64,000 nt of DNA from NCBI GenBank assembly GCA_035591015.1, contig JAXIUW010184736.1, positions 1 to 64,000 on the forward strand. Direction: 5' to 3'. Shown here piece by piece: positions 34,801 to 52,846 of the stretch. How positions within the stretch are numbered: the stretch's first letter is position 1; each line of letters starts with the position of its first letter. Both the position numbers and the translations under genes were made by a program. This stretch comes from Cephalothrix simula. Taxonomy: Eukaryota; Nemertea; Palaeonemertea; Archinemertea; Cephalotrichidae. The notes below the pieces were generated by a model that saw only the letters and a list, made by a program, of their open reading frames with translations, was not told the origin of the DNA and ran no database searches.

Positions 34801-37800
34801 GGCACATCGGTGTATTTGCCATCAGTATCCTTTTTGTACTTAAATACCTGTACTACGGCACTAGCAACGTCGGTGTTAGTGTCAGCAGCATTTACCCAGC
34901 TAACGTTTATCTGCTCTCTGTTCGCGGAATTTCTAGTCGCAACATCTGTAACTTGAAGAGTTCGCGCTTCTAAAGTTAATGGACTACTAGGGTCTCCTTG
35001 GTTAGCTGCCGGCACAGCTATAATGTTAAAGGATACCTTAGACCCCAGCGTTGCCTTTGAATTAATAACTTTTTTGCCTACGGTACTGTAATCAATGGCG
35101 TTTGCGCTATTTGCAGTCTGACCGACTTCGACATTTAGATTGAGACTCGTTGTACCTACGGGTACGTCAGTAATATCCTGATTTACATCGTCTGAGCCGT
35201 CATTGTATTTTAGGGTGTATTTAACGGCACCCTTAACTGCGTCCCAATTTAGGGCAATAGTGTTACCATCTGCCGACCAGCTACCATTGGCGGGAGTATC
35301 AAGACTTCTTACAGCCACCTCGTTTGAAGCATCAGATTGTTCTGACGTTAACGGTGTTGTACCATCAAAAGTTACAGTTCTATCGTAAACATTCTGGACT
35401 TTAAACTTATAGAAGCTTCCATTAGTAACATTAAAAGTTATCTTGCCTTCGTCAGCAAGACTATCAACATTAATTTTTCCACCGTCAATTTCAGTGAATT
35501 CTCCTGCACCACCTTCAGTAGTAGCAGATGCAGAGAACACCTTTATCTTATTAGCTCCCTTATCAACGCCTGTAAGAGTAACCGTTTGGCCGCTGACAGT
35601 GACGCCAGGCGTAACTGGCTTTAGAGCATAATCAAACACACGTGAACTTTCAGAAGTCCCCTTGCCGGCAACGCCTTTCAAGAATGCTTTAGCAGTCAAC
35701 TTTGCGTAATTCTTGCCACTAACGAGCTCATATTGAGCTTCCGTTAGCTTAACTTTATAGGCAGCGGACTCTGGTGTTGATTTTAGTACTTCAGTTCCGC
35801 TAAATTTACTTTCGGCCTGATAACTAGTAGCATCAGCAACCTTGTTCATGGTAATCGTAAGACTGTCGTCAGTACCTTTCTCAACCCCCGTTACTACCGG
35901 AGCATCCAAAGTTGTAACTTCTACCTGCTTGGTTTCTCCTTTACCAACAGCATTGAAAGCGGCAATAGTATAATAATAAGTTGTGCCAGCTTGTAGAGGG
36001 TCCCCTGCTACAGCTATGTTAGAAGACAGCAATGTCTTACCTTTCACATCATAATTAGCAAGTGAGCTTGCAACCAGAGTGCCTTCTGCATCCTTTGAAA
36101 TGCTGCGATAGATGCTGTAGGTTGTTCCTGCAGTAATATCTTTGTTATCAAAAGTCAAAGTCACGGCGACTACATTATTCTTGCCATCGGTATTGGTGGT
36201 AGTTGCCTTGGCGGTTACGGTGTTAGAAACCACTGCCTTAGCCGAAACATCAGCTTCAACTACATTTGAGGCATCAGCAGCAACGTCGTTTGTGTCTACC
36301 TTAGCCTCGGACACAGTTTCGCCTTCAGCAGCGTATACCGGGACAACCATGATGTAGTTCTTGCCAACTTTAGTAACCGTGACAGTGGCCTTTAGAATAT
36401 TTGCTCCGTCTACATTTGCAGAACCTGCGTCAACGCTATTATCTGGAACAGTTAGCAGAGACGCAGCATCAGTAATCTCTGAATCACTTTGTTTGTAGTA
36501 AACACGGTAGCCTGCTAAGTTGCGGGTTGTTCCCGCTTCCTCTTTAGTAGTTTTGGTTGGTTGAGACCAACTCAAGGCCACCTTTTTGGCTTCCCTAGCA
36601 ACATTAAGGTCTACCTCAAGACCCGTTACTTTATTGCTTGATTCCGGAACCTTAGCACAGCCATCTGCGCCAGTATGGTTAATACACTTCTGCCCGCTTG
36701 CAGCACCTTCTATGCCGCGAACATCAACCGCGGTAACCACGTAATATGTGGCTTTGCCGGCCTCGGGTGCGGTTATTGCCATACTATTAGTCGTAGAGCT
36801 TCTCTTATTTGTGCCCTCGCCGGTCAAATCAACAGGATTACTGAAACTTGTTGCCGACGAATAAACATTGTACGAAGGAGCAGTTGGAACAGAATTCCAA
36901 TTTAACGTTCCGCCGTTGCTATTAAGCGGGTTAAACACTTTTGCAAGATCCGCATCAAATGTTGGGGCTATCACTAAAGATTTAGCTTTGGGCTTAATGT
37001 TCTTAACCTCAGCACTAGCAACGTCAACACCATTCCAGACCTCGGTAATCTTAACGGTGTACGTTTGGCCATTGGTGAGTGGACGCACCTCATATTTAAT
37101 TTTATTTGAATCCTTATAGCCAGCTACAGCATAAGCAGGGATATTGATGTTGTAAGCTGTTTCGCCTTTGGGTGTTACTTCTAACCTGTAACTGCTATCA
37201 GTTCTATTGCTAGCATCCCACTGCAAAGTAACTGCGCCAGAATAAGGGTCAGCTGATGTTATTTCGGGGTTACTAATAGCACCTTCAGCATAGGCAACGC
37301 CACTAACCACGTTAGAATAGGCAAAAGCTCCGGAGCCATCTGTATAGTTAAGCTTAACGTAAACATTGTATACGCCCGCATCATCTACTATCGCGCTAAC
37401 TTTGTTAGGTTCAGCATTTAAATCTTCTGATATAAGGTTATTTTCTTTTTTAGTTCCATTTACATAGAGCTCTACATTATAGCTTCCACTTGCTTTCGGA
37501 AAAGTTACTTCAATCTTTGGTGACGAACCAGCGGCCACACCCCAGCTAGCAGCAGTTAAAACTATATCATCTTGGCGGCCACCTTTGGCTTGTGGGGTGT
37601 CATAGGCTCCCAATGTTTTATTGGCACAGCCAGCACCATTACAAGCTTGTACTTGAACGTGATATTTTTTTTCTTCCAGACCTGCAAGTGTATAACCCAA
37701 GGCCGAAGTCTCTTTATAAACCACCCCGTCCAAGTATATTTTGTAGTTATTGGCATTAGATATAGCAGGCCACGTTACGACCAAACCGCCCTCAATAGGT

Positions 37801-40094
37801 TTAAGGCTTGGCACTGGAGATGAAGCTGGTTTAACCTTCGCAACTGAAAGAGTAGTTACTTCTTTTCGCTCTGAAAAAGCACCTTCACCCCACTCATTTT
37901 GAGCCGTGACGTACACGTAATATTGTTGCCCTTCAACCAAATCTAAGAAAGAGCGTGCAGTGCTGCTTCCGCTATCATAGTAGGTGTCTTTCTTAAACAC
38001 TGTGGGGTCGCCTTTCAACTCTTTAGTTGAAATATAAACATTGTATGTGACAGCACCGGCGGAGGGGTCAAACAGAATATCAAAGCCTCCAATTCTATCC
38101 GATATCTTAATGTTCTTTGGTGCTTCAGGCGCACCTAGGGCGATTGCGCCGCCTACAATATTTGAAACTGAATCAGTATTAATGTTTTTAACCTGATAAT
38201 AGACGTTGGCGCCCTTAGTTAGGCCAGAATGCGTAAATTTGCCTTCTTTAAGTTCTTTAGCAATTGGTACAGCATTAATTTTAAAATCTTTAGGATTAGG
38301 AGAAGAGGAATAGTAAACAGCATACGAAGCATCTTTTGATATAGTCCAAGTTAGTGTGGCAGTAGTGCCATCAATACTTAGGTTTGGGTTGATTGCTCCA
38401 GCATCAGTACTTTTTGTGTATGGAGTAGCGGCCAACGCTGCAGAAAGAACAGACGTTATACCACCGGCTACTGCCTCAACTGCGAAGGCGTGCTGTTCTT
38501 TAGTTGGTAACACATAAGAAGTTCCACTAAGCTCAATCTTCGTGGCCGTACCTTTGGTGTTTTCACTCAAACCAGATGCGGCACCTTTCAAAATGTACAG
38601 GTTGTAGGTGGCGGCGTTATCAACCGGACTCCATGAAGCAAAAATCTGCTCAAGACCTTTATCCAAAGCCAATGCAGGGGTATCAGGTGTAGGGGCATTT
38701 ACAGTTACTGAACTCCCATCACTCAGCTTGCTCCTGACGCCTTTACCATCAGCAGACCTAAGCTGAACAATGTATGTGGCACCATTTTCTAAGCCTTGTA
38801 TGACGTATGTTTGGCTGGCTCCTTCACTTTCTGTTTTTACATTAATGCAAATTCGCTCATCAGGGCTACTGCCTTGCCTTCTATAACAAATGTCGTAGCT
38901 AGGTTTACCTGTACTTGTAGTCCACTTCACTTCAATAGTGTTGGCTACTTTTTCGCCATTTACGCCGAAGGCAGTAGGTGCGTTGGCAAGGGTAGGTGCT
39001 TCCCAAGTTCCAGTCACTTTTATTCCGGAGATACGTTCTATCTTTGCATCTTTGCTTTCTATGCCATTGGTCACAGAGACTAAGGCGACATAATAATCAA
39101 GGTTAGACTCCGCAGGCACTACATAGTTCGAGTTGCTGTTTAGCCCATCAATGTCAATCACTGTCGCATTATTCTTAAATGTAGCAAACGGTTCATTATA
39201 CGCCTTAGTGGACAAACTGTTGGGAGAAGAGGCAGAAGGGGCAGAAGATTTTAGATATATCCTATAACCTTGGGCATCGCTTACATTGCCCCATCGTACC
39301 AAAAAACCGCCGTCTGCATCTTCGTATGTCACCCTAGGTGCTTCAGGCGGAACCAAATAACTGTATTCCGCAGTGTTAGATGGCTCAGTGACTCTTGCTC
39401 CGTCACTATTCAAAGCTAAGGCCTCGGCATAATAAGTTTCGCCAGTAGTCAACTTAGTCACAATAGCGGCTGAAGCTTTACCATTACTGGCCTCAACCTT
39501 GATACCGTTGCCGGGAGAAGCCGTTTCGCTGACGCCCCAGTAGTAATTATATTTTAGGCCGACTATGCCATTTGTAGCTTTGGCAACTAAAGAGCCTGCA
39601 CCGGACACAGAAAGTTCTACGACGGGAGATGGGAAATAAACTCCGGCCTGCGGAGTGACCTTTTTTGTAGTTGGCGCAGCTACTTGCTTGCCGCCTTTCA
39701 AAAAGGTAACCCGAACATCGTAAGTAACGTTGTTTTTAATAGCTCCTTTGTCAGCCTTGCTCACCGCCAGACCACCATTTTCTGAATAGCCAACAGAGTC
39801 AGTTTTAACGTCAGTACCTTCCAAGTATCCTGCCGCCACAAAATCTTTATCAGTGGCTTTTTTGACCTCTACTTTCACTTGATCGACGCCAGCCACCTTC
39901 TTGTCTGACCAATCAACCAAAAACATGCCATTGCCAGAACTCACCTTATAGGGCACCGTTACAGAACCACCGCCATCAGTACTGCCACCTCCGCCAGTGC
40001 TGCCGCCCCCGCAGCCAGCCAAGACCAGCGCCACAACAGAAGTTGCAACTAAATTCAAAGCCAATCTCAATTTCAAAGTTCTATTAAAAGTCAT
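28881..40094 (-). CDS. Giant repeat lipoprotein B (FN3-like domains, diverged C-terminal repeats)
   Basis: This 3,737-residue lipoprotein has signal and lipobox LAGC (C28), a Gly/Ser-rich tether, and glycine at +2. The ATG at 40094 follows an AGGGGAT ribosome-binding site. The first 2,870 or so residues align collinearly by eye with giant lipoprotein A (for example SGNGMFLVDWS, YYDSGSSTARSFL, GCVELERTNGGFTLPTPN). They are a chain of fibronectin-III-like beta domains. The remaining 860 residues hold much more diverged repeats of the same general kind (ITITGGKYTLGKD, ITISGTYAIGGG) and a distinct C-terminus. No enzyme motif is seen. Surface exposure on the outer membrane is inferred. It is separated from lipoprotein A by a terminator and 1.25 kb, so each gene probably has its own promoter. 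Confidence 0.87.
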   Translation of the reverse strand: MTFNRTLKLRLALNLVATSVVALVLAGCGGGSTGGGGSTDGGGSVTVPYKVSSGNGMFLVDWSDKKVAGVDQVKVEVKKATDKDFVAAGYLEGTDVKTDSVGYSENGGLAVSKADKGAIKNNVTYDVRVTFLKGGKQVAAPTTKKVTPQAGVYFPSPVVELSVSGAGSLVAKATNGIVGLKYNYYWGVSETASPGNGIKVEASNGKASAAIVTKLTTGETYYAEALALNSDGARVTEPSNTAEYSYLVPPEAPRVTYEDADGGFLVRWGNVSDAQGYRIYLKSSAPSASSPNSLSTKAYNEPFATFKNNATVIDIDGLNSNSNYVVPAESNLDYYVALVSVTNGIESKDAKIERISGIKVTGTWEAPTLANAPTAFGVNGEKVANTIEVKWTTSTGKPSYDICYRRQGSSPDERICINVKTESEGASQTYVIQGLENGATYIVQLRSADGKGVRSKLSDGSSVTVNAPTPDTPALALDKGLEQIFASWSPVDNAATYNLYILKGAASGLSENTKGTATKIELSGTSYVLPTKEQHAFAVEAVAGGITSVLSAALAATPYTKSTDAGAINPNLSIDGTTATLTWTISKDASYAVYYSSSPNPKDFKINAVPIAKELKEGKFTHSGLTKGANVYYQVKNINTDSVSNIVGGAIALGAPEAPKNIKISDRIGGFDILFDPSAGAVTYNVYISTKELKGDPTVFKKDTYYDSGSSTARSFLDLVEGQQYYVYVTAQNEWGEGAFSERKEVTTLSVAKVKPASSPVPSLKPIEGGLVVTWPAISNANNYKIYLDGVVYKETSALGYTLAGLEEKKYHVQVQACNGAGCANKTLGAYDTPQAKGGRQDDIVLTAASWGVAAGSSPKIEVTFPKASGSYNVELYVNGTKKENNLISEDLNAEPNKVSAIVDDAGVYNVYVKLNYTDGSGAFAYSNVVSGVAYAEGAISNPEITSADPYSGAVTLQWDASNRTDSSYRLEVTPKGETAYNINIPAYAVAGYKDSNKIKYEVRPLTNGQTYTVKITEVWNGVDVASAEVKNIKPKAKSLVIAPTFDADLAKVFNPLNSNGGTLNWNSVPTAPSYNVYSSATSFSNPVDLTGEGTNKRSSTTNSMAITAPEAGKATYYVVTAVDVRGIEGAASGQKCINHTGADGCAKVPESSNKVTGLEVDLNVAREAKKVALSWSQPTKTTKEEAGTTRNLAGYRVYYKQSDSEITDAASLLTVPDNSVDAGSANVDGANILKATVTVTKVGKNYIMVVPVYAAEGETVSEAKVDTNDVAADASNVVEADVSAKAVVSNTVTAKATTTNTDGKNNVVAVTLTFDNKDITAGTTYSIYRSISKDAEGTLVASSLANYDVKGKTLLSSNIAVAGDPLQAGTTYYYTIAAFNAVGKGETKQVEVTTLDAPVVTGVEKGTDDSLTITMNKVADATSYQAESKFSGTEVLKSTPESAAYKVKLTEAQYELVSGKNYAKLTAKAFLKGVAGKGTSESSRVFDYALKPVTPGVTVSGQTVTLTGVDKGANKIKVFSASATTEGGAGEFTEIDGGKINVDSLADEGKITFNVTNGSFYKFKVQNVYDRTVTFDGTTPLTSEQSDASNEVAVRSLDTPANGSWSADGNTIALNWDAVKGAVKYTLKYNDGSDDVNQDITDVPVGTTSLNLNVEVGQTANSANAIDYSTVGKKVINSKATLGSKVSFNIIAVPAANQGDPSSPLTLEARTLQVTDVATRNSANREQINVSWVNAADTNTDVASAVVQVFKYKKDTDGKYTDVPEATQFYTETFTQQKDTAGVLQPLTSGSISVIDTNKWKFFDTYKEGGSDKEQSVPYFFKVQTISSTAKSALVTAKYVRTKLVLEKIPHVNVSKDDNIGMTFTWKAPQVKGKNAEYVTAYVSTIIKKNNEDLSEERLKPVELKVTAANKNDAKYSYEFKDEEPLYLYKLAVYYKTLDGQSEATESLFAIRGRYPAITNTKAATVGSVATLTWNLDAPTGREPELFMINGKNTKVVENTAADKTGKVVRTGNVGTVNSYEYKTTIASSSELAVVPGTPGSALGLGILVNIPYTFIKSPTGVALGTLQSGKYNVKWSDDDKGSGLILEAGYQVLPVGTAPTANYTPAAIEISSPGVGTFKTPTVKTGEYAAISFRYDEVGKPSDTFVGAWTGENLRANVASPVVSDVQIYNNIWTTNQADLGYMTAKVTFAEDLTKAGVISKIKVDATGCVELERTNGGFTLPTPNNTCITDITGSVATIKVKAVSGSETTSLDVLTKLSDGSSSIEASSVTQTITFYAGKDVTNKVDVKPIVLAVPTVGGRKLDDSSVSVSWDAVTNAKGYKVYYKASTSNTASKPDAIFNNVVGKIDDNTAPPTEVPADAITGTTATISGLAGNTTYVDVAVVPLINTVKAVPGVASIVLKEVSQLAIKDIWFNVGANNKARVSFKSVGELNLGGYTVTLKASKAGADYGEVTVPTAAGNTFVPAPVYLPLNVTTNTTDVKFTLTLTNNSDATDVKTHVLTKSVPFVNFANGNNLKVAVDYSANKVTVTPVTVSKDNPKLERCSAIDCSGTPVTVATALTNGVVVDSNITVPSEGLYYRYSGGGEVIAIVKANPVNTLPEVTISRTGNDVTARLNTQFSIQNVTETPTYTLTGGSATANFVNDAATITVDGSTQVANVNASLSDGLITYTALIAKTIVNVDNFTFTYNIKEQRFDVGAKVGDGSIDFNYVFKYKTITAGKESEETLGSLSKANAANGYKMLFDPTKGADKTIIEKDVFHDGVEYIVNIVNTAGVLATKTYQTQNTPTSSDLGAVTYKRIDNYAEVGFEFPNGTNYKLLKVASVNVTAGQRSAATAYTHDQNRFTLRLGSGHFQNLAYYVVAEAGDGKEASVYGLASEKKFKSFGILGDLSGRFISTTGSDFNKPVVTLGPNQFFLGGVPIQDTDNIKLNTSAVAGGAASITLNIEANNTAADVYAYYVDSAASVSYFTKEIVYRLETAGVKYKAKAKGVEKVTLTRSGRYRHGGGDSDVDNANRGKLYLSTDSDGKGIMETLELTLNEKNKVATVYAVVNHDVVTYVKGMPIKRFHIASPVYNYKEYEVANKTTLSLNGRLELGEDTAVSNKLIELSLSATGDNPVPLIPDLTNPVVPVYKDNSVTYVGEARGIVSLDISKVKIKSAVRRYLTDQADITISGTYAIGGGQIPATGNSDKTKDLNFTKTINFAGATESPITLSTKATNADGTVVNYNYIKPIKYYSILNSSTGLRFNAKGIDPVTINGKEYNSIAGLNIHITITGGKYTLGKDTIDYDKAPTRILNLVEDSQNVFSLGEDVNNPQFAQIGYVEGNITYVDEKMFESFRYVSAFPQMATMNPSGDVEFKVANVRYQLGASRYISDQWEAIYISNKPEKTYQLKFGTEKFATTGKYTLKADSSNIPKEHSENLALPLTVPYYKNISYENYNTWTIGKYEISNVKLKKEPHNDGIEVSFETVTAKLFDKNFEGKTVQTDIRREDIYLYKENETSGRKSVTVKSGDKVYVGFNYNNAHYLLSEPMVITDPRTINKVTIKFETRDIGIYKGVSYIGNISIDASTTAVGETVQVFAKGCVGPPITSLVVNPPIPEVCMKITKGGAFVAGQDNIKVRTLRYNVGGNTFSIGYSVRDGNIGAGINSSNIKFRYPDANDSWDFPRSSYFSVYNQSTGVTDKSRVATSANDVLILTYNGKPTTKDNEVKLEYNYKAKWIVNSTNDGFSEESPLLP

Positions 40095-43766: not shown

Positions 43767-45059
43767 CTAGATGAGCATCTTAATCGGTTCGGTAAGAAAC
43801 TCGGTTAGGCTTTGCATAAACTTAGCAGCTAGCAAGCCATCAACAATCCGATGGTCGGAAGACAGCGTCAGGTTCATGGTTTGTCCTACCACAATGCTGC
43901 CATCTTCAACCACTGGTTCAGTAACCATGCCCGACACCGCCAATATTGAAGCCTGAGGGGCATTAATAATGGCGTTAAACTCTGTTACCCCGAACATACC
44001 CAAGTTAGAGATAGTAAAGCTGCCTCCATTGTACTCTTCGGGAGCCAGTTTTTTATCACGGGCACGACCGGCAAGGCTTTTCATTTCAGTAGAAATCTCA
44101 ACCATAGATTTATGATTGGCCGCCCAAATAATCGGTGTCAACAAGCCACTATCTGTGCCTACGGCCACTGCAATATCTGCCTCTGGGAACATCTTAATTT
44201 CATCACCGCTAAACTGACAGTTCACCTCTGGATGCTTCATTAAAGCACAGGCAACGGCCTTGATAATCAGATCATTCACTGACAACTTAACCGGTGTTTC
44301 TGCATCAGCAAGTGTTGCATTAAGCTGCTGGCGAGCATTAAGCAGTGCTTCAACTCTTATTTTGCGCCGAACCTGAAAGTGCGGAATATTCTGCTTAGAA
44401 TTAAGCATAGCTGTCGCAATAGCTTTACGCATCATTGACAGCTTAACAATTTTCACCTCAGCTGTGGCCACGGGTTGGCCTTGCGGAGTGGGGCGAGGTG
44501 CTTGAGCATTTTTAACATCATCGGCTACAATACGACCGTTGACACCGCTACCACTAAGGCTGTGCCAATCAATGCCACGCTCAATAGCCAGCTTGCGGGC
44601 ATAGGGCGATATCCGCACCCGACCATTGCTAGCCTGAGGCAAAGATTCGGAAGGCTGGGGAGCAGCCGTTGCGCCCAAAGTTTTAGGCTCTGGCGGTGGT
44701 GTTTCCGCTTGGGTAGGCTCGGCGACTGGATTAGTCGGTGTCGGCTGGGCTTGTTCAGCGGGTTGGGGCGGAGCTACAGGCTGGGCTAGCTCGGCACTAA
44801 CCGCAGCAATATCTTCATCAGGAGTGTCAGTCATAATAGCGATTGGCACTCCAACGGCAGTCTCTGCTCCCGGTTCCACCAATATAGCTCTCAGAAAACC
44901 CGCATCGGGCATCTCGTACTCCATGATGGCTTTGTCAGTCTCTATCTGCGCCACTATATCGCCAACATTTATCTTGTCGCCTACCTTCTTCTCCCAAGAA
45001 CTGATTGCGCCGGTCTCCATAGTTGGACTAAGACCCGGCATGTAAATAATGGTAGCCAT
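43767..45059 (-). CDS. pdhC: Pyruvate dehydrogenase E2 (dihydrolipoamide acetyltransferase)
   Basis: This 430-residue E2 core has a lipoyl domain (residues 1-80, lipoyl-lysine K43 in ETDKAIMEYE), a Pro/Ala-rich linker (about 95-145), an E3/E1-binding domain (about 150-185, RISPYARKLAIERGID) and a catalytic acyltransferase domain with the active-site DHRIVDG near the C-terminus. There is only one lipoyl domain. An AGGAG ribosome-binding site precedes the ATG. It is the last gene of pdhA-pdhB-pdhC; the E3 gene is not in the window. Lipoylation may depend on the LipM-like gene at 49.4 kb. Confidence 0.94.
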   Translation of the reverse strand: MATIIYMPGLSPTMETGAISSWEKKVGDKINVGDIVAQIETDKAIMEYEMPDAGFLRAILVEPGAETAVGVPIAIMTDTPDEDIAAVSAELAQPVAPPQPAEQAQPTPTNPVAEPTQAETPPPEPKTLGATAAPQPSESLPQASNGRVRISPYARKLAIERGIDWHSLSGSGVNGRIVADDVKNAQAPRPTPQGQPVATAEVKIVKLSMMRKAIATAMLNSKQNIPHFQVRRKIRVEALLNARQQLNATLADAETPVKLSVNDLIIKAVACALMKHPEVNCQFSGDEIKMFPEADIAVAVGTDSGLLTPIIWAANHKSMVEISTEMKSLAGRARDKKLAPEEYNGGSFTISNLGMFGVTEFNAIINAPQASILAVSGMVTEPVVEDGSIVVGQTMNLTLSSDHRIVDGLLAAKFMQSLTEFLTEPIKMLI

Positions 45060-45081
45060 ACTCCTTTAATCTCCTAACGCT

Positions 45082-46062
45082 TTAACTACGATACATCACC
45101 GCCTTAGCTGCCTTAATCACCTTTTCTGGAGTTGGCAAACAGACCGCCTCTAAAACCTTAGAGTACGGTAAGGGGTTTTCATTTTGAGTTACTCTAATTA
45201 CTTCAGCATCTAAGTCATCAAAGCAGGCTGAATATATATCGGTGGCTATTTGAGCACCCACGCCCGAAAAATAGTGGCCTTCTTCAACAATCACTGCACG
45301 ATGAGTTTTTCTGATTGACTGCGCTATTGTTTCTATATCAAGGGGCTTTATGGTGCGCAAATCAATCAGCTCGGGATTAATGCCCTCTGCACGAAACTGA
45401 TCAAGGCTTTCCATAAGCATGTTAAACATTCTGCTATAAGAAATTATGGTTACGTCATCGCCCTCATGCTTGATTTTGGCCTTGCCGATTGGCTCTAAGA
45501 ACTCGCCTTCGGCCACCGGCTGTTTGAGGCCATACAGCATCTCATTTTCTATAAAAATTACTGGATCATTACTGCGAATAGACGACTTCAGCAAGCCCTT
45601 AGCATCATGTGCATCCGAAGGGCTAACCACAATTAGTCCCGGCTGGTTAGCAAAGCAATACTCAAGGCAATTAGAGTGCTGCGCCGCAACTTGAGCTGCC
45701 GCACCGCCCGGACCTCTGAAAACTAAGGGCATATCAAACTGACCGCCCGACATATAACGGGTCTTGGCTGCGTTAGAAATAAGTTGATCAAAGGCTACTA
45801 GCGAAAAATTGAAGCTCATAAACTCAACTATTGGCCTTAAACCAGTCATTGCTGCGCCGATGGCTAATCCTGTAAAACCATTCTCAGAGATTGGCGTGTC
45901 AACCACACGCTGGGGGCCAAAGGCATCAAGCATACCCTGCGAAACCTTGTACGCTCCGTTGTATTCAGCAACCTCTTCGCCAATCAGAAACACTCTACTG
46001 TCGCTGTTCATTTCTTCGCACATGGCCTCATTTAAGGCCTGACGCATGGTGATTTCTCGCAT
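45082..46062 (-). CDS. pdhB: Pyruvate dehydrogenase E1 beta subunit
   Basis: This 326-residue E1-beta forms the thiamine-diphosphate active site with PdhA. It starts MREITMRQALNEAM, contains GEEVAEYNGAYKVSQGM and DTPISENGFTGLAIGAAM, and ends with the usual C-terminal domain (VIVEEGHYFSGVGAQIATDIY). It lacks the N-terminal lipoyl domain that some alphaproteobacterial PdhB proteins carry. The pdhC start lies 22 bases beyond its stop. Confidence 0.95.
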   Translation of the reverse strand: MREITMRQALNEAMCEEMNSDSRVFLIGEEVAEYNGAYKVSQGMLDAFGPQRVVDTPISENGFTGLAIGAAMTGLRPIVEFMSFNFSLVAFDQLISNAAKTRYMSGGQFDMPLVFRGPGGAAAQVAAQHSNCLEYCFANQPGLIVVSPSDAHDAKGLLKSSIRSNDPVIFIENEMLYGLKQPVAEGEFLEPIGKAKIKHEGDDVTIISYSRMFNMLMESLDQFRAEGINPELIDLRTIKPLDIETIAQSIRKTHRAVIVEEGHYFSGVGAQIATDIYSACFDDLDAEVIRVTQNENPLPYSKVLEAVCLPTPEKVIKAAKAVMYRS

Positions 46063-46207
46063 TACTTCAACCGGGCTTATGTTGTTGTTTTGATTATTAT
46101 TCTAATAATTTTGATTGCTTTGCTTATTATTTAATTCAGACATTTATAGCCAGCTGTCTCTATTAATCTAATTGCTGATGTAGTCTTTAGTCTTACTTTT
46201 TTCTGTA

Positions 46208-47248
46208 TCAATTAGCCAGTACGTCTTCAGATAGGCTCTCTAAGGAAGGTTGCGGGCTTTTATCGGCAAAATCAACCGCTGCCTTAACCTGTTTATTCAC
46301 TCTATCTTGAATGGCCTGATCTTCATCTTCACTAAGCCATTTTAAGCGTTGGCAAGTTGTTTTAAGGTTGATGATGGGATCATTCTTAATATATTGTTCA
46401 ACCTCTTTTTTACCCCGATAATTAGCTGGATCAGATATTGAATGCCCACGGTAGCGATAGGTTTCAGCCTCAATCAACACTGGTCGACTGGCTTTGCGAA
46501 CATCCTTAGCAATGCTACTCATTAGCCGATGACAGGCTAGTAAGTCCATGCCATCAACCTTTAAGCCTTCCATTGAATAGGCTGCTGCCCGCAAGGCTAC
46601 ATCATCATCTGCCGTAGACCTGTCTATAGATGTACCCATTCCGTATAAGTTATTCTCTATAATAAATATAGCGGGCAAATTCCATAAAGAGGCCATATTC
46701 AATGCCTCATGAAATACGCCTTGATTAACAGCTCCATCACCCAAAAGCACCAAACTCAGCTGCTTAGTTCCTAAATATTTATTCCGAAAGGCCGCACCCA
46801 AACCAATGGGGATTTGCCCTCCCACTATTCCATGACCACCTAAAAGATTTTTCTCTCTTGAATAAAAGTGCATTGACCCTCCTTTGCCCTTGCACAAACC
46901 CGTAGCCTTGCCGAATAACTCGGCCATCAATACTCCCAAAGGCACGCCTCTGATAATGGGAAATGCATGGTCGCGATACGAAGTTACTACATGGTCATCA
47001 TCATTTATGGCATTCAAAAAACCCACCCCCACGGCCTCTTGCCCTATGTATACATGTAGAAAGCCACCAATTTTTTTCTGCTGATACATTTGCTCAGAGC
47101 GGCGCTCAAAAGAACGTATAACATGCATTTGCTCATACATTTGCAAAACCTTCTCTCGCCCTAAAGCTAGGGCGTAGTCTTTGTGTTCTACGTCAGAAGG
47201 ATTGGCCACACTGCCTTTGTCTGCTTCTTTGGTGTCTCTCTTTCTCAT
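46208..47248 (-). CDS. pdhA: Pyruvate dehydrogenase E1 alpha subunit
   Basis: This 346-residue E1-alpha binds thiamine diphosphate through LLGDGAVNQGVFHEALNMA followed by ENNLYGMGT, the GDG...NN signature. The phosphorylation-loop region YRYRGHSISDPANYR is conserved, as in pyruvate- rather than branched-chain-specific enzymes. The operon runs pdhA, 145-base spacer, pdhB, pdhC. The charged first 25 or so residues precede the conserved fold; the ATG at 47248 is the simplest start. Confidence 0.94.
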   Translation of the reverse strand: MRKRDTKEADKGSVANPSDVEHKDYALALGREKVLQMYEQMHVIRSFERRSEQMYQQKKIGGFLHVYIGQEAVGVGFLNAINDDDHVVTSYRDHAFPIIRGVPLGVLMAELFGKATGLCKGKGGSMHFYSREKNLLGGHGIVGGQIPIGLGAAFRNKYLGTKQLSLVLLGDGAVNQGVFHEALNMASLWNLPAIFIIENNLYGMGTSIDRSTADDDVALRAAAYSMEGLKVDGMDLLACHRLMSSIAKDVRKASRPVLIEAETYRYRGHSISDPANYRGKKEVEQYIKNDPIINLKTTCQRLKWLSEDEDQAIQDRVNKQVKAAVDFADKSPQPSLESLSEDVLAN

Positions 47249-47640
47249 AAGCCCTATTGTTGGTGATGTTGCTAAATCGCCCTAAAATACCGGCAGTCGC
47301 TAAAAAATAGTCTACTATAGATACCAATTAGTGCTGCTAATGTCAAAGTGTATGGTTTGGCTAGATTACGGTCATGGCTTACTTATAGCCCCTTAATGCA
47401 TACCCCAAAGTCTGTCAACTGCATGATATTTTAAGCAAAGCACTGCTGACAACCTGTGTTCTTAAAACCTTACAACCGCCTAAGAAGCCAATTCTGGCTG
47501 TGGCTTGTATTATAAAGTCAATGATAGTCTTTGGCTCGTAACTCATTATTAACATTTACGATGACAAGAAGCCGTTTTACCGCTATGAGTGATGATAAGC
47601 ACCGCTAGTAATAGAGAATATCTGCGTAACGTGCTATGTT

Positions 47641-47667
47641 GCTCACTGTAGCTAGTGAGCTTTATTT
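47641..47667 (+). terminator. Hairpin with T-rich tail in a gene-free spacer
   Basis: A 7-bp stem GCTCACT/AGTGAGC with a 6-base loop is followed by TTTATTT on the plus strand. It looks like a Rho-independent terminator, but no annotated plus-strand gene precedes it within 4 kb. It would fit a short non-coding transcript from 47.3-47.6 kb, or it may be chance. Confidence 0.35.
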
Positions 47668-47706
47668 ATGAGAATTGGAATGAGTGCATCATACACGCTG
47701 CAACCT

Positions 47707-47790
47707 TATACATAGCCTCATACATGGCATCATACATGGCATCATACATAGCTTTATACTTGGCATTATGCATAGCCTTGTGCATTGCTT
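47707..47790. repeat. Seven tandem copies of a 12-bp unit
   Basis: Seven units of 12 bp (consensus CATACATGGCAT/TATACATAGCCT) lie head to tail. The second and third are identical and the outer ones progressively degenerate. The 12-bp period keeps a reading frame open that would encode Tyr-Met-Ala-Ser-like tetrapeptides, but there is no sign that it is translated. Confidence 0.9.
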
Positions 47791-47955
47791 TATATTGGGT
47801 ACGGAGCTATCAATTATCCGCGAGTGGCAGTGCACCAAGGTGGGCAGGAATTAGTCTATAGTTTTGTATCCTTTGTAATCTATTGGCGGTGTGTTGATTG
47901 AACTTGATGCAACAATATTTCGGTGTAGATTAGGCTTAGTGTAGCCAGCAATTTT

Positions 47956-49122
47956 ATGCACAATAACAACGACAAACTTAGCCCCAATGAGCTTAATCGT
48001 TATAGTCGCCATACCAGCCTGCCCGAAGTAGGCATCAAGGGCCAACAACGCATTAAAAACAGTCGTGTACTATTGATTGGGGCTGGGGGGTTGGGCTCAC
48101 CAATTGGATTGTACTTGGCGGCCGCCGGCGTGGGGCAAATAGGTTTGATTGATGATGACCTAGTTGAAGAAAGTAATCTGCAACGCCAAATAGCGTACTC
48201 AACCGCTGAAATTGGCAAAAAAAAGGCTTCTGTTATGGCCAATACTCTGGCCGAGCTTAACCCAACCATTAAGATTAATGCTTATAATCAACGCTTTAAT
48301 CATGGCAACGCTCTTGAATTAATTGCTGACTATGATTTAATAATTGATGGCAGTGATAATTTTTATACCCGTTATTTGGCTAATGATGTGGCATTTTTTG
48401 CTGATAAACCGCTGATTTACGGTGCTATATTTCGGTTTGAGGGGCAGGTTACTGTATTTAACCGCTCACAGGGTGGTCCATGTTATAGATGTATTTATCC
48501 TACGCCAACACCAGCGGCATTAGTCCCTAGCTGAGCAGAAGACGGTGTTCTGGGCGTGCTTCCAGGAACGGTGGGGCTGTTAATGGCTACTGAAGCTCTA
48601 AAAGTCATACTGGGCAAGGGTGATAGTCTTGTTGGCCGGCTGGTGGTCTATGATGCTCTTAAGGCTAAGTTTAGCGAGTTTAAGACCATCTATGACAACG
48701 ATTGCGTCCTATGTGGAAGAACGCCCAGCATAACCGATTTAAGCGACACCAGCAGTTTTCGCCAACCAACCCATACTGAAGCTATGCCAAGTGAAACACC
48801 TGATATGCTAGAGATAACTCCTCGTGAGCTTGAGAAAATTATTGCCGAAAACCGTCCTATCCGATTAATTGACGTGCGTGAAGACAATGAATGGGAGGCT
48901 GCCTACATAGAAGGTGCTGAGCTTATTCCGCTAAGCCGCTTTGAAGAAGCCTATACCAAGCTCAACAAGAATGATGAGATATATCTTTACTGTCGTAGCG
49001 GTGTGCGCAGCCTTAACGCCCTGCACATGCTAAAAAAACATGGCTATAAGAAGCTACTTAACCTTAGTGGCGGCATATTGCGTTGGCACAGCGATGTTGG
49101 TCATAGTATCAAAAGCTCTTAG
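47956..49122 (+). CDS. ThiF/MoeB-rhodanese sulfur-carrier activating enzyme with in-frame TGA (probable Sec193)
   Basis: This 388-codon E1-like adenylyltransferase fused to a rhodanese domain belongs to the MoeBR/Uba4/MOCS3 type, which adenylates and thiolates a ThiS/MoaD-like carrier. Residues 1-245 hold the ATP loop GAGGLGSPIG, the NLQRQ motif, DGSDN (D134) and a zinc site of two CxxC pairs (C176/C179 and C250/C253). Residues of about 275-388 are a rhodanese domain with the catalytic loop YCRSGVRS (C346). Codon 193 (48532-48534) is TGA at the conserved cysteine of the family motif PS-C-AE.GVLG; the rest of the frame is intact. A SECIS-like hairpin follows and selA lies 10 kb downstream, so selenocysteine is my preferred reading. 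A nonsense mutation or base error is the alternative. The carrier (thiamine, molybdopterin or tRNA thiolation) is unknown. Confidence 0.85.
48547..48569 (+). promoter_or_regulatory. Candidate bacterial SECIS hairpin
   Basis: GTTC-TGGG pairs with TCCAG-GAAC around the loop CGTGCT, giving eight pairs including one G-U, with one bulged G at 48566. The apical loop begins 20 bases after the TGA (48532-48534) and has G as its second base. The general bacterial SECIS model asks for a small apical loop about 16-37 nt after UGA with a G in the first two loop positions, so the geometry fits. A competing 5-bp hairpin (48536-48552, loop with GGT) sits closer to the TGA and cannot coexist with it. Confidence 0.6.
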
Positions 49123-49444
49123 TTAACCCTCCCCACAATAGAAGCCCAGCACACTCACACTACGGCTTAGTGCGCTGAATCGCATCACAAATACTGGCAC
49201 AACAAGCCTTAGGATAGTATCCCTTAATATGGAGGTGAGGCAACGAAATGCGCATCTAACTCTAAAGATACAGCATAGCATCCCCCTTAGTATGGGGTGA
49301 GGCTTAATGATTGCCGAGCATCGTCTTTGAACGGTTAAATATTGGCCTCTAGCAGTCTCAACGGGATGCAGAAGCTCGCTAGGCTGTACGAAGCTCTAAG
49401 AGCAAAATTGTAGCTAGGTGCTTAGTTTTATGGGCTGTTTCAAT
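49123..49444. repeat. Spacer with an imperfect 28-29 bp direct repeat
   Basis: No gene is seen here. The segment 49214-49241 (ATAGTATCCCTTAATATGG, then AGGTGAGGC) recurs in altered form at 49275-49303. It lies between the convergent ThiF-like and lipoyl-transferase genes. Confidence 0.55.
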
Positions 49445-50248
49445 CTACTTTTCAGTGTCTTCAATTAGATTAGGGTAGCCCTTGGCCATATTCTTAATGG
49501 TTTCTAACTCTTCAGGCCTCCAGTCATCGGCTTCAAGCTCAACGCCCAATGCTTGTGCAAAGCTGTTTTGCAGGGCACTGATAATGTCTGTGGTGCTTAT
49601 GCTCAATTTTTGCTCTTGGAGGCTCGTAAAATGTTGCTGAGTGTGTTGGGCATCTTTGAAGATCAATTTGCGCATCAAGCGATCATCACGCATCGCCAAT
49701 GAGCCATGCTGCATAAGGCCATCTGTACCAATGCGCTGGGCATTACCAAGCACTTTCTTGCCATCTAAAAGCAGCTCATTGCGTGCCGGCGATAAAAAAC
49801 AATCTGCTGATGAATGGGCCGTACGCTGTTGCTTGCTTAAGGCCACTATTTGAGGGCTTAACCCTGCGCCTAGCAAAGACTCTTGAAAGGCTTTGGCAAT
49901 TGCCGCATAAATATGGTCGGCCACAAAAGTTTTTTCAGAAGGCAACGTTAAACAATAAGTAAGATCAGCTCCATGTAGCACCGCTCGGCCACCGGTAATG
50001 CGCCGCACCATATATACATCATGCTTACGCATGTTATCAAGCAGCAAGCCCCGTAATCCCTGCGAGTAACCTAAGGAAAGGCACCACCCCTCCCATTCAT
50101 AAAAGCGTAGGATGGCCGAATTATCGTGCTTGGATTTTTTAAGACTGTACTCATCCATGGCCATATTAATGGCCGCCGACAACGGCAGATTAACTATCAG
50201 CCGACACTTGCGGGGCAGTCCAAAAGATTTATTTTCTGTAGTAAGCAT
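49445..50248 (-). CDS. LipM-like octanoyl/lipoyl transferase
   Basis: This 267-residue member of the lipoate-protein ligase/octanoyltransferase (BPL-LplA-LipB) fold has the binding motif RRITGGRAVLHGADLTY. It also has the LipM-type segment SADCFLSPARNELLLDGKKV, followed by GNAQR and QHGSL. The cysteine in that segment matches the nucleophile position of Bacillus LipM, and the GKK lysine matches the conserved lysine. It probably transfers octanoyl groups to lipoyl domains, such as that of the nearby PdhC. LplA-type ligase activity cannot be ruled out. It is transcribed convergently to the ThiF-like gene. Confidence 0.8.
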   Translation of the reverse strand: MLTTENKSFGLPRKCRLIVNLPLSAAINMAMDEYSLKKSKHDNSAILRFYEWEGWCLSLGYSQGLRGLLLDNMRKHDVYMVRRITGGRAVLHGADLTYCLTLPSEKTFVADHIYAAIAKAFQESLLGAGLSPQIVALSKQQRTAHSSADCFLSPARNELLLDGKKVLGNAQRIGTDGLMQHGSLAMRDDRLMRKLIFKDAQHTQQHFTSLQEQKLSISTTDIISALQNSFAQALGVELEADDWRPEELETIKNMAKGYPNLIEDTEK

Positions 50249-50717
50249 AACTTAAAGATTTCACTAAACCGGCTGGCCTTGGCAATAGGCAATAATAGAA
50301 TTGTAGAACAACTTTCAGCGGAACATGGCCAGATCATACTAAAAAAATAAGTAATATATGTTACCGCATTGCTATATTTATTTCTGTGTGTTATTGTGCG
50401 TTCATTGGTGTTGAATACTAACTACATGCGTGCTCAATTTAGCTGATATTTATCGGTATCGTGCACATCAGGTGACTTAAATTAAGTCTTGATGCCTGAT
50501 TGCTAAGCAGATTGGCTATTATGTAGGCAGTTTTTGATTGCCATGACAATCATGTGCTTTTTGAATATTTTGGGTAGCAAAAAATAATCTTGATATTATT
50601 TGTTAAAGCGTCTACCCTCTTCAAAAAGTAGAGTATGCAGGAGTGCACTGCACTAATTTTGAGAGTGTAATCTAATTTATTCTAGGTTTCATTCGCCGTG
50701 CAAAAAGAAGGTATAAG
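50249..50717. other. Divergent promoter region between the lipoyl transferase gene and pal
   Basis: This is 469 bases of AT-rich spacer. I see no gene. It must contain the promoter of the tol-pal cluster; a TTGATA at about 50591 is a possible -35, but no convincing -10 is visible. An AAGAAGG ribosome-binding site lies just before the pal ATG. Confidence 0.4.
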
Positions 50718-51521
50718 ATGCGTAGAGATAGATTTTTAGTAGTTTTGGTAATAGGCTTAGCAACCCTTTTCTTGGCTGGTTGCCCTGCCCAAGAAGTAGC
50801 AACTCCGGTTGAAGTAACCTCTGATCCGCTGCCGGCTGGCGATGGCCCGCCACAGCTTGATACAGAAAAATTACCGCCACCGTTACAAGAGCTTAGTCCA
50901 GCTCCAGATTTGTACCGGGCTAGAATTCGTGTTGATGACAACTCATTACAGAAACTGGATGATACAGGTGTATCAAGCAGCGTTGTCAACCAGCTTAAAC
51001 TGTTGTCTGGTAGGAACTTCCTCAACGCCAATCAGTTTTTTGTTGAGCTTGAGCGAGTTTTGGGTAAGGAGACATATTTAGAGAATCGTGATGCCATAAT
51101 TGAGGCTACTCTACTGATTGATGTAGACACCAAGCCCGCCTTCCCCGGCACCGAGCTACAGTTGGTGCTGGCTCCGGCTGAAAATAGCGTTGGGTTTAGT
51201 ACCGTTTTATTTGATTTTGACAAATCAGATATAAAGCCCGAGTTTATTGAAACTATTCGCGCTAATGCTAGGCTTCTTAACGAAAATCCTACTCTGCGAA
51301 TTGTGGTTGAAGGACATTGCGATTACCGCGGTACCCCAGAATACAACCTTGCTTTAGGCGAACGCCGGGCGCAAAGCGTTCAGGCTATGCTGATTTCATA
51401 CGGCGTTGACCCAAACCAAATTCAAACCATTAGTTTTGGCGAAGAATTCCCGGCTGACCCGGCGCAAACTGAAGCTGCCTACGCCAAAAACCGGCGTGCT
51501 GTTTTGGTTGAAGTAAAATAG
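50718..51521 (+). CDS. pal: Peptidoglycan-associated lipoprotein Pal (long form)
   Basis: This 267-residue outer-membrane lipoprotein has signal and lipobox LAGC (C22). The C-terminal 110 residues form the OmpA-like peptidoglycan-binding domain (VLFDFDKSDIKPEF, VVEGHCDYRGTPEYN, ALGERRAQSVQ, KNRRAVLVEV). Between them lies an unusual region of about 120 residues (GDGPPQLDTEKLPPP and onward) that ordinary Pal proteins of about 170 residues lack. It links the outer membrane to peptidoglycan and to TolB. It is first in its cluster, whereas most tol-pal operons place pal after tolB. A strong hairpin follows. Confidence 0.9.
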   Translation: MRRDRFLVVLVIGLATLFLAGCPAQEVATPVEVTSDPLPAGDGPPQLDTEKLPPPLQELSPAPDLYRARIRVDDNSLQKLDDTGVSSSVVNQLKLLSGRNFLNANQFFVELERVLGKETYLENRDAIIEATLLIDVDTKPAFPGTELQLVLAPAENSVGFSTVLFDFDKSDIKPEFIETIRANARLLNENPTLRIVVEGHCDYRGTPEYNLALGERRAQSVQAMLISYGVDPNQIQTISFGEEFPADPAQTEAAYAKNRRAVLVEVK

Positions 51522-51564
51522 TTTGTGGCATCGGTCATTTTTTAGTATTGTTAGCTTTGTATAG

Positions 51565-51598
51565 GGCTTCTACCGTTTTTGGTAGAAGCCTTATTGTG
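51565..51598 (+). terminator. Terminator/attenuator between pal and tolQ
   Basis: A perfect 10-bp stem GGCTTCTACC/GGTAGAAGCC with a GTTTTT loop is followed by TTATTGTG. It would allow much more pal than tolQ mRNA. tolQ begins 25 bases further on, so read-through or a second promoter must feed it. Confidence 0.8.
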
Positions 51599-51622
51599 TG
51601 TTGTGTGGGGAAATTTTAGCTT

Positions 51623-52297
51623 ATGGAAGCATCTTACTGGTCGATGTTTGTGGGTGGTAGCTTGGTAGCACAGGCTATCTTGGTTGCTTTGTTGCTGATG
51701 TCGACTATCTCATGGGCGATAATCATTTATAAGTGGCTTTATTTTCGCAAAGTTTCTAAAGAAAATAACCAAGCATTACAGCTGTTAAACAGAGAATCAT
51801 CTTCGGATGGAAACTTATCTTCTTTGAAGTCTCTAACTTCATCGCCGCTTGCAAAAATGTATCGGCAAATACATAAGCCGCTTCGCACTTATCTTAATGA
51901 TAAAAAAGGTGTCCAACGCACCATTGAAGAAAAGCAGGACATTATTAATTCTTTGTCGCAAAGACTAGAGCTGGCTTTTAATCGTTCGCTTACTAATCTT
52001 GAAGACAAATTATCTTGGCTCCCCATCATATCGGGTTCTGCGCCATATATTGGCCTGTTTGGAACGGTTATTGGAATTATTAGTGCCTTTCAGGGCATTG
52101 CCTCGGTGGGTGTGTCTTCAATAGCTGCCGTTGCTCCGGGAATATCTGAAGCACTGGTGGCTACTGCGGCAGGATTATTCGCCGCCATTCCGGCACTTAT
52201 CGCTTATAATGTCTTCCAGAGTAAGGTGCGCAGTATCAATGCTGTAATGAAAAACTTTGCCTTAGATTTATTAAATCGCATTGAAGACGCCCTATAA
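51623..52297 (+). CDS. tolQ: TolQ inner-membrane proton-channel protein
   Basis: This 224-residue MotA/TolQ/ExbB-family protein has three membrane segments: one near the N-terminus (ILVALLLMSTISWAIIIYKW) and two in the C-terminal half (YIGLFGTVIGIISAF, and the EALVATAAGLFAAIPALIAYN stretch). With TolR it uses the proton gradient to energise TolA during outer-membrane constriction at division. Confidence 0.95.
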   Translation: MEASYWSMFVGGSLVAQAILVALLLMSTISWAIIIYKWLYFRKVSKENNQALQLLNRESSSDGNLSSLKSLTSSPLAKMYRQIHKPLRTYLNDKKGVQRTIEEKQDIINSLSQRLELAFNRSLTNLEDKLSWLPIISGSAPYIGLFGTVIGIISAFQGIASVGVSSIAAVAPGISEALVATAAGLFAAIPALIAYNVFQSKVRSINAVMKNFALDLLNRIEDAL

Positions 52298-52336
52298 AGC
52301 ACCAGTATGCAGGGCTTTGCGTCTTAATCTACAAAA

Positions 52337-52373
52337 CTCTATCTACTAGGGTACTAGTATAGGTTAGATAGAG
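52337..52373 (+). repeat. Long-stem hairpin between tolQ and tolR
   Basis: Arms CTCTATCTA/TAGATAGAG (9 bp) enclose an inner CTAG..CTAG pairing. There is no T-run; it is probably an intercistronic mRNA structure. Confidence 0.55.
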
Positions 52374-52408
52374 GGTTATCAAATGCAATAACTCATACCT
52401 AGAAACCT

Positions 52409-52846
52409 ATGAGCAACTTTAGAAAAAATAGTTGGACTTCACCAGAGCATCTAGAGAATATCAACGTTGTTCCCTTTGTTGATGTTTTGATGGTTTTATT
52501 AGTTATATTCATGGTTACTGCGCCGGTTATCTCACACACACTTGATGTTCAGCTACCAACGGCTAACCTTTCTCCGGGAACCAAGATTGACCAAACACTT
52601 ATCATTAGCCTTGATCAGCGTGGCATAGTTGCGCTTAATGATACGGTGATTGGCCTTCTTTCAGAAAAAAACTCTGCCGATCGTTTTGACCGAGAAATTA
52701 GAGAATGGCGCTCACGCTATCCGGGAAACTCGGCCTTCTTGCGTGCTGATCGCCGTATTATTTATGCTCGCATTATTCAAGTGATGGCCCGCCTTCGTGA
52801 ATTAGGCGTAGTTGACGTAGGAATGATGATTGAGCGTGGAGGCTAG
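52409..52846 (+). CDS. tolR: TolR
   Basis: This 145-residue ExbD/TolR-family protein has a short cytoplasmic N-terminus, one membrane helix with the essential aspartate (NVVPFVDVLMVLLVIFMV), and a periplasmic domain. It is the partner of TolQ. Its stop codon abuts the tolA start. Confidence 0.95.
   Translation: MSNFRKNSWTSPEHLENINVVPFVDVLMVLLVIFMVTAPVISHTLDVQLPTANLSPGTKIDQTLIISLDQRGIVALNDTVIGLLSEKNSADRFDREIREWRSRYPGNSAFLRADRRIIYARIIQVMARLRELGVVDVGMMIERGG

Follow-up and report, generated by a model that had tools for sequence, protein, structure and literature searches.

Does the in-frame TGA of a MoeB-like gene at this locus end the protein, or is it read as selenocysteine (Sec)? The question concerns a 64,000-nucleotide stretch of DNA, hereafter the window, for which a preliminary description made from the letters alone had proposed a Sec-containing ThiF/MoeB-rhodanese enzyme. 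In our reading, the gene very probably encodes a selenoprotein: an E1 enzyme of the MoeB/MOCS3/Uba4 type from a probably SAR324-related bacterium, with an N-terminal adenylation domain, a C-terminal rhodanese domain and a Sec193 that would be inserted by means of SelB and a hairpin. The features of the gene are the following.

47956..49122, + strand: proposed Sec-containing MoeB/ThiF-rhodanese gene, 388 residues, Sec at 193, stop codon TAG.
48001..48702, + strand: ThiF/MoeB adenylation domain, residues 16-249 (Pfam PF00899, 263.9 bits).
48481..48492, + strand: first zinc Cys pair, C176 and C179 (CYRC), by alignment.
48532..48534, + strand: TGA codon in frame, the proposed Sec193, which lines up with Cys187 of E. 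coli MoeB and Cys202 of C. thermophilum Uba4 (both residue numbers hand-counted from the alignments).
48548..48567, + strand: SECIS-like hairpin with a 7-bp stem, a 6-nt loop and G at loop position 2.
48703..48714, + strand: second zinc Cys pair, C250 and C253 (CVLC), by alignment.
48748..48762, + strand: linker segment T265-R269, at the place of the Tyr and Cys found in relatives (Y301/C305 in Uba4).
48817..49092, + strand: rhodanese domain, residues 288-379 (PF00581, 70.1 bits), whose active-site loop CRSGVR contains C346.

The interruption is as it had been described. At 48532-48534, codon 193 of frame 47956-49122 reads TGA. No other stop precedes the closing TAG: the 387 other codons are open, and 195 of these lie past the TGA. 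With independent bases drawn at the composition of the window's contig, the chance that 195 random codons stay open is about 2e-5. Pfam recognizes both ThiF and rhodanese on the read-through protein, and the frame therefore resumes in homologous sequence after the TGA. The zinc CxxC pair and the rhodanese loop that had been said to be kept past the TGA are present, as is the other zinc pair, and C176, C179, C250, C253 and the rhodanese C346 are each Cys in 120/120 of the relatives listed. The TGA itself falls exactly where a conserved Cys had been claimed: among the full-length relatives listed, out of 8000 scored, position 193 is Cys in 120/120, in a set that is unable to show Sec because Sec proteins would be stored truncated. 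The top NCBIfam models for the read-through protein are NF006444 and NF005902 (MoeB-rhodanese / MoeZ), at 436.7 and 417.5 bits, both under the curated cut-offs of 449 and 647. The predicted protein has the ThiF domain, the rhodanese with its active Cys and the two zinc Cys pairs of MoeB-rhodanese (MOCS3/Uba4-type) E1 enzymes.

The same codon is TGA in other genomes. We scanned 84,980 species genomes with a pattern that admitted TGA, TAA, TAG or TGG at the codon and obtained 19 loci, with TGA in 19/19 and TAA or TAG in none. Tabulated as had been suggested, residue 193 is thus Cys in all the full-length relatives listed and TGA in every locus of the scan. By record name, seven of the loci belong to SAR324, three to Deltaproteobacteria, three to Verrucomicrobia groups, three to Methylomirabilota and two to Planctomycetota or Planctomycetales; the last is named only 'Bacterium' and is near-identical to the Verrucomicrobia loci. 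Some of these loci are not independent of each other: L022 and L027 represent one gene of a single MAG, and L018, L024, L032 and L033 are near copies.

When the 192 residues before the TGA were used as query against protein databases, 113 of the 120 matches listed (of 7976) ended just before aligned position 193, a count of protein ends whose stop codons were not seen. This is what would be expected if gene callers stop at UGA, and the databases may contain many Sec-MoeB proteins cut in this way. The other seven matches end elsewhere, and among them the partial protein P0221 has Cys at the position. We dropped the closeness of the window to truncated over Cys relatives as an argument, because for the N-terminal half the Cys-bearing P0221 reaches 61% identity, no lower than most of the truncated proteins. 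A scan of a viral collection gave 0 matches, a scan of genome contigs with the protein query found no relative, and a plasmid search returned relatives at <60% identity.

Insertion of Sec depends on a dedicated machinery, of which two parts lie on the window's own contig (C175).

58756..60177, + strand: selA, L-seryl-tRNA(Sec) selenium transferase (PF03841 364.5 bits; TIGR00474 430.1 bits).
116579-117505 of the contig: SelD (333.5 bits), with an in-frame TGA in KTGGUAAK.

SelD is itself a likely second selenoprotein on this contig. A SelB match spanning the whole model (363 bits) lies on a different contig (C1) of the same assembly, and the matches for selA, selB and selD are all above curated cut-offs. 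The preliminary description had pointed to selB, selC and selD as the genes to look for; selB and selD are present in the assembly, together with selA, and selC was not found there; the assembly comprises 8.6 Mb in 580 contigs and has no completeness figure. The Rfam model for tRNA-Sec, with 53 of 380 candidates scored, gave nine matches in the assembly and none over the cut-off, and ARAGORN called eight of the nine as Ser, Leu, Tyr, Cys or Thr tRNAs. Two tRNA-Sec patterns also failed to find the gene in the assembly; one pattern match was rejected as not tRNA-like by eye. A SAR324 tRNA-Sec used as DNA query had no match there either, an empty answer that alone shows nothing. The Rfam model does score above its cut-off in 4/4 SAR324 genomes tested. 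The simplest reading is that an assembly gap would explain the missing tRNA-Sec.

TGA is not generally recoded on the contig, because it ends 4/57 of the long frames, and we rule out general recoding on that ground. A script found 54 read-through candidates over the 149 kb of the contig, 12 of them without overlap to other long frames. Among those 12, sorted by eye and without family searches, only the MoeB-rhodanese gene and SelD seem to form one protein across the TGA.

These results bear on what else the TGA might be. Were it a true stop, the locus would be a pseudogene or a split gene, consisting of a 192-residue adenylation fragment and a 188-residue rhodanese starting from GTG 48556. Two separate ORFs are indeed listed when TGA is treated as a stop (47956-48534 and 48556-49122), and the failure to find tRNA-Sec in the assembly would agree with such a reading. 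Decay or splitting is not, however, expected to keep one stop codon precisely at the place of an invariant Cys, and in 19/19 loci the codon is TGA, with no case of TAA or TAG. Past the TGA of the window, the frame, the zinc Cys and the rhodanese Cys stay intact, and Pfam finds rhodanese and ThiF in the read-through proteins of all ten Sec loci scanned (of 19). We therefore regard a true stop as improbable.

That a TGC or TGT was turned into TGA by a sequencing or assembly error is barely credible, given TGA at the same codon in MAGs of several phyla (19/19 loci) and the 113 of 120 listed database proteins that end at the same residue, if with stop codons not seen. The TGA might instead be read as Trp, Cys or another amino acid through a changed code or a near-cognate tRNA, which would also accommodate the missing tRNA-Sec. 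The 4/57 long frames that end in TGA, the restriction of apparent read-through by eye to the MoeB-rhodanese gene and SelD, and the presence of selA, selB and selD in the assembly make this very unlikely. Sec insertion at 193, predicted as it is from sequence, is well supported: the Sec reading first proposed for the TGA is favored by the 120 listed Cys relatives, the 19 TGA loci and the selA, selB and selD genes of the assembly.

The loop of the hairpin in the window begins 20 nt past the TGA. Our hairpin scan was a simple one; of its criteria, the small apical loop with a guanosine is also described in PMC1088965. The scan placed a stem-loop after the TGA in 20/20 sequences, although the lowest-energy fold of L033 differs. 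We do not use hairpin stability as evidence, because it shows no excess over synonymous recodings: 2573/5000 of these equal or exceed the hairpin of the window in stability, probably because the peptide VLGVLPG itself favors a hairpin.

Codon usage across the hairpin is more informative. Codons 199-201 are CTG GGC GTG in 10/10 SAR324-type sequences, the window included. In these ten, mean codon diversity over codons 197-204, a region picked after the hairpin was seen, is 0.265 vs 0.624 for 57 further degenerate codons that are conserved (p 0.0005, in a test that treats codons as independent). The corresponding values are 0.219 vs 0.596 without the window (p 0.0012), 0.275 vs 0.653 with two Planctomycetota and one Verrucomicrobia sequence added (p 0.0005), and 0.432 vs 0.641 for all 17 sequences (p 0.0015). 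The three Methylomirabilota loci have different codons at 200-202. The search pattern had left every third base free in codons 197-203. Codon conservation thus provides better evidence for a putative SECIS than stability does.

What organism carries the gene, and in what setting? The preliminary description had placed it beside pdh and lipoyl-transfer genes, and pdhCBA and an lplA-like gene do flank it.

43767..47248, - strand: pdhA, pdhB and pdhC (pyruvate dehydrogenase E1alpha, E1beta and E2), divergent neighbors.
49445..50248, - strand: lipoyl/octanoyl ligase-family gene, lplA-like (PF21948, 90.7 bits).

The order pdhC-pdhB-pdhA, moeB(Sec), lplA-like, pal, tolQ (window 43767-52846) is common to the window and L034, while L030 shares pdhA and pdhB with the window and L035 shares lplA-like, pal, tolQ, tolR and tolB. 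The closest among the named matches listed for the histidinol dehydrogenase of the window are SAR324 cluster bacteria (58% and 56%). Because of this match and the common gene order, we take the host bacterium to be, in all likelihood, distantly related to SAR324, with the gene inherited in place. In the DNA covered for the 19 Sec loci, which is 8 kb at most and for some of them includes little flank, the link to pdh or lplA is seen in three (L034, L030 and L035), and a functional tie of Sec-MoeB to lipoyl metabolism is no more than a lead. Elsewhere in the window, at 28881-40094 on the - strand, lies a giant open frame of 3737 codons with a lipoprotein-like start and a fibronectin-type appearance by eye.

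A quick tree of 79 rows comprised the window, 15/19 Sec loci, 23/113 truncated proteins and 40/120 Cys relatives. It places the window within a 32-row set (SH-aLRT 99) in which 22 rows are truncated proteins, one (P0008) is a Cys protein and nine are Sec genes, namely the window and genes from SAR324 and Deltaproteobacteria records. The end branch of the window is long (1.41) and the tree tool flags its placement as unsure. The Verrucomicrobia Sec genes sit among Cys relatives, likewise on a long branch. Three changes between U and C are needed on the tree, and the AU test does not reject one common clade of Sec genes (p 0.0835); several origins are not shown. P0008 is a full-length Cys relative inside the SAR324-type Sec set, a possible instance of Sec/Cys exchange.

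The two domains occur in either order among the ten loci scanned. The rhodanese is C-terminal in five SAR324-type loci and one Verrucomicrobia locus, and N-terminal, the opposite of the SAR324-type order, in two Planctomycetota and two Methylomirabilota loci. By Pfam, the N-terminal-rhodanese Sec-MoeB genes are:

L017:5530-6669
L023:3579-4811
L026:62-1231
L029:3667-4836

We do not claim that Sec is tied to the rhodanese fusion, since the 120 Cys relatives listed also carry the rhodanese Cys; the count tells in which subfamily Sec is used and does not imply that Sec needs the rhodanese.

Selenoproteins of the MoeB family are known. Sec-containing MoeB homologs do appear in marine metagenome surveys, as the preliminary description had suggested: MoeB is named among new selenoprotein families from the Sargasso Sea in 2005, with 11 sequences (PMC1088965), and the GOS survey of 2008 reports 19 (PMC2398784). 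In the text of the 2005 account, every new selenoprotein had a SECIS-like stem-loop, and the functional discussion reaches as far as implicating selenium in molybdopterin biosynthesis. Two later reviews, of 2022 and 2026 (PMC9312934, PMC13188914), list the MoeB family but, in the passages concerned, do not describe its function. We recognized no functional or rhodanese-specific account of Sec-MoeB in the open-access literature searched, in so far as its text was available. The family described from marine metagenomes resembles the gene of the window in having Sec, here a predicted one, in place of the Cys of homologs, a downstream stem-loop and widespread Cys homologs, a comparison made by text and not by alignments; the rhodanese fusion, the catalytic-loop position and the organisms are not mentioned in the passages of these papers that treat MoeB.

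With Uba4 / MOCS3, the eukaryotic adenylation-rhodanese E1 for Urm1, the gene shares the order adenylation-linker-rhodanese; it differs from Uba4 in having the predicted Sec193 for Cys202 and T265/R269 for the linker pair Y301/C305. The MoeB-rhodanese / MoeZ models (NF006444, NF005902) are its best NCBIfam matches, but these have Cys and the window protein scores below their cut-offs. E. coli MoeB and ThiF match its adenylation domain by sequence, whereas their matched chains end with that domain and lack a rhodanese, and E. coli MoeB has Cys187 at the loop position of U193. In our judgment the gene is a new and well-supported member of a selenoprotein family that was already known, and its linker is unusual. 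Judged from alignments and domain searches, what is added beyond the known family is the coincidence of the predicted Sec with the Uba4 Cys202 position, a rhodanese in 10/10 scanned loci, two domain orders and the absence of the linker pair from this copy.

In a profile alignment with 6yub, U193 corresponds to chain residue 200, residues 265 and 269 to 299 and 303, and C346 to 395 (hand-counted). An offset of 2 turns these positions into the published C. thermophilum Uba4 residues Cys202, Tyr301, Cys305 and Cys397, and the alignment shows position 193, the predicted Sec, to be equivalent to Uba4 Cys202. In the working model set out in PMC7527816, Cys202 forms a thioester with Urm1, and the persulfide of Cys397 then replaces the thioester by an acyl disulfide; Cys202 is also in redox communication with Cys305 of the linker; the equivalent residue in yeast, Cys311, is reported to be non-essential. 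The linker Tyr and Cys are present in 120/120 Cys relatives listed, and the window protein has Thr265 and Arg269. Across the 19 Sec loci, Tyr is found in 16 and Cys in 17 (L017 is without residues there and L023 is poorly aligned). With T265/R269 as its linker pair, the copy in the window must work without an equivalent of Cys305, and we take the missing pair as variation and not as exclusion because of the report on yeast Cys311.

We infer the catalytic steps by carrying them over from the Uba4 model. SelB would read UGA 193 as Sec, aided by the hairpin just downstream. The adenylation domain would activate a small sulfur-carrier protein by turning its C-terminal glycine into an acyl-adenylate, and Sec193 in the crossover loop may take the acyl group as a selenoester. 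Alternatively, Sec193 may resolve an acyl disulfide formed by a persulfide on the rhodanese C346. The thiocarboxylated carrier would then be released. By analogy with Uba4, a selenol at 193 would be both a better nucleophile and a better leaving group for these steps.

As for the carrier, ThiS/MoaD (PF02597) gave 0 matches in the window's 8.6-Mb assembly, for which there is no completeness figure, and PF02597 was present in 10/10 other Sec-MoeB genomes tested, with one to seven matches each. One ThiG match was obtained in the assembly, over 49 model positions at 22.7 bits (23.9 with neighbors; 23-bit cut-off), and it is unconvincing because only a fifth of the model is covered. A search of the assembly with the MoeB-rhodanese protein returned one match, the gene itself. 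The absent carrier may reflect either an incomplete assembly or an unusual carrier. A bolder proposal, which we hold to be unlikely though worth stating, is that of a distinct E1 in which the crossover-loop selenol would exchange with the persulfide of a rhodanese fused at either end; in the window's lineage it would replace the linker Cys and serve a carrier outside ThiS/MoaD, possibly tied to the lipoyl-ligase and pyruvate dehydrogenase genes.

With the residue, its partner Cys, the organisms and the domain orders now specified, these data make Sec-MoeB testable. If the reading is true, an E1-like enzyme with Sec would put selenium chemistry to use in the transfer of acyl or persulfide groups, and not in peroxide or disulfide reduction.
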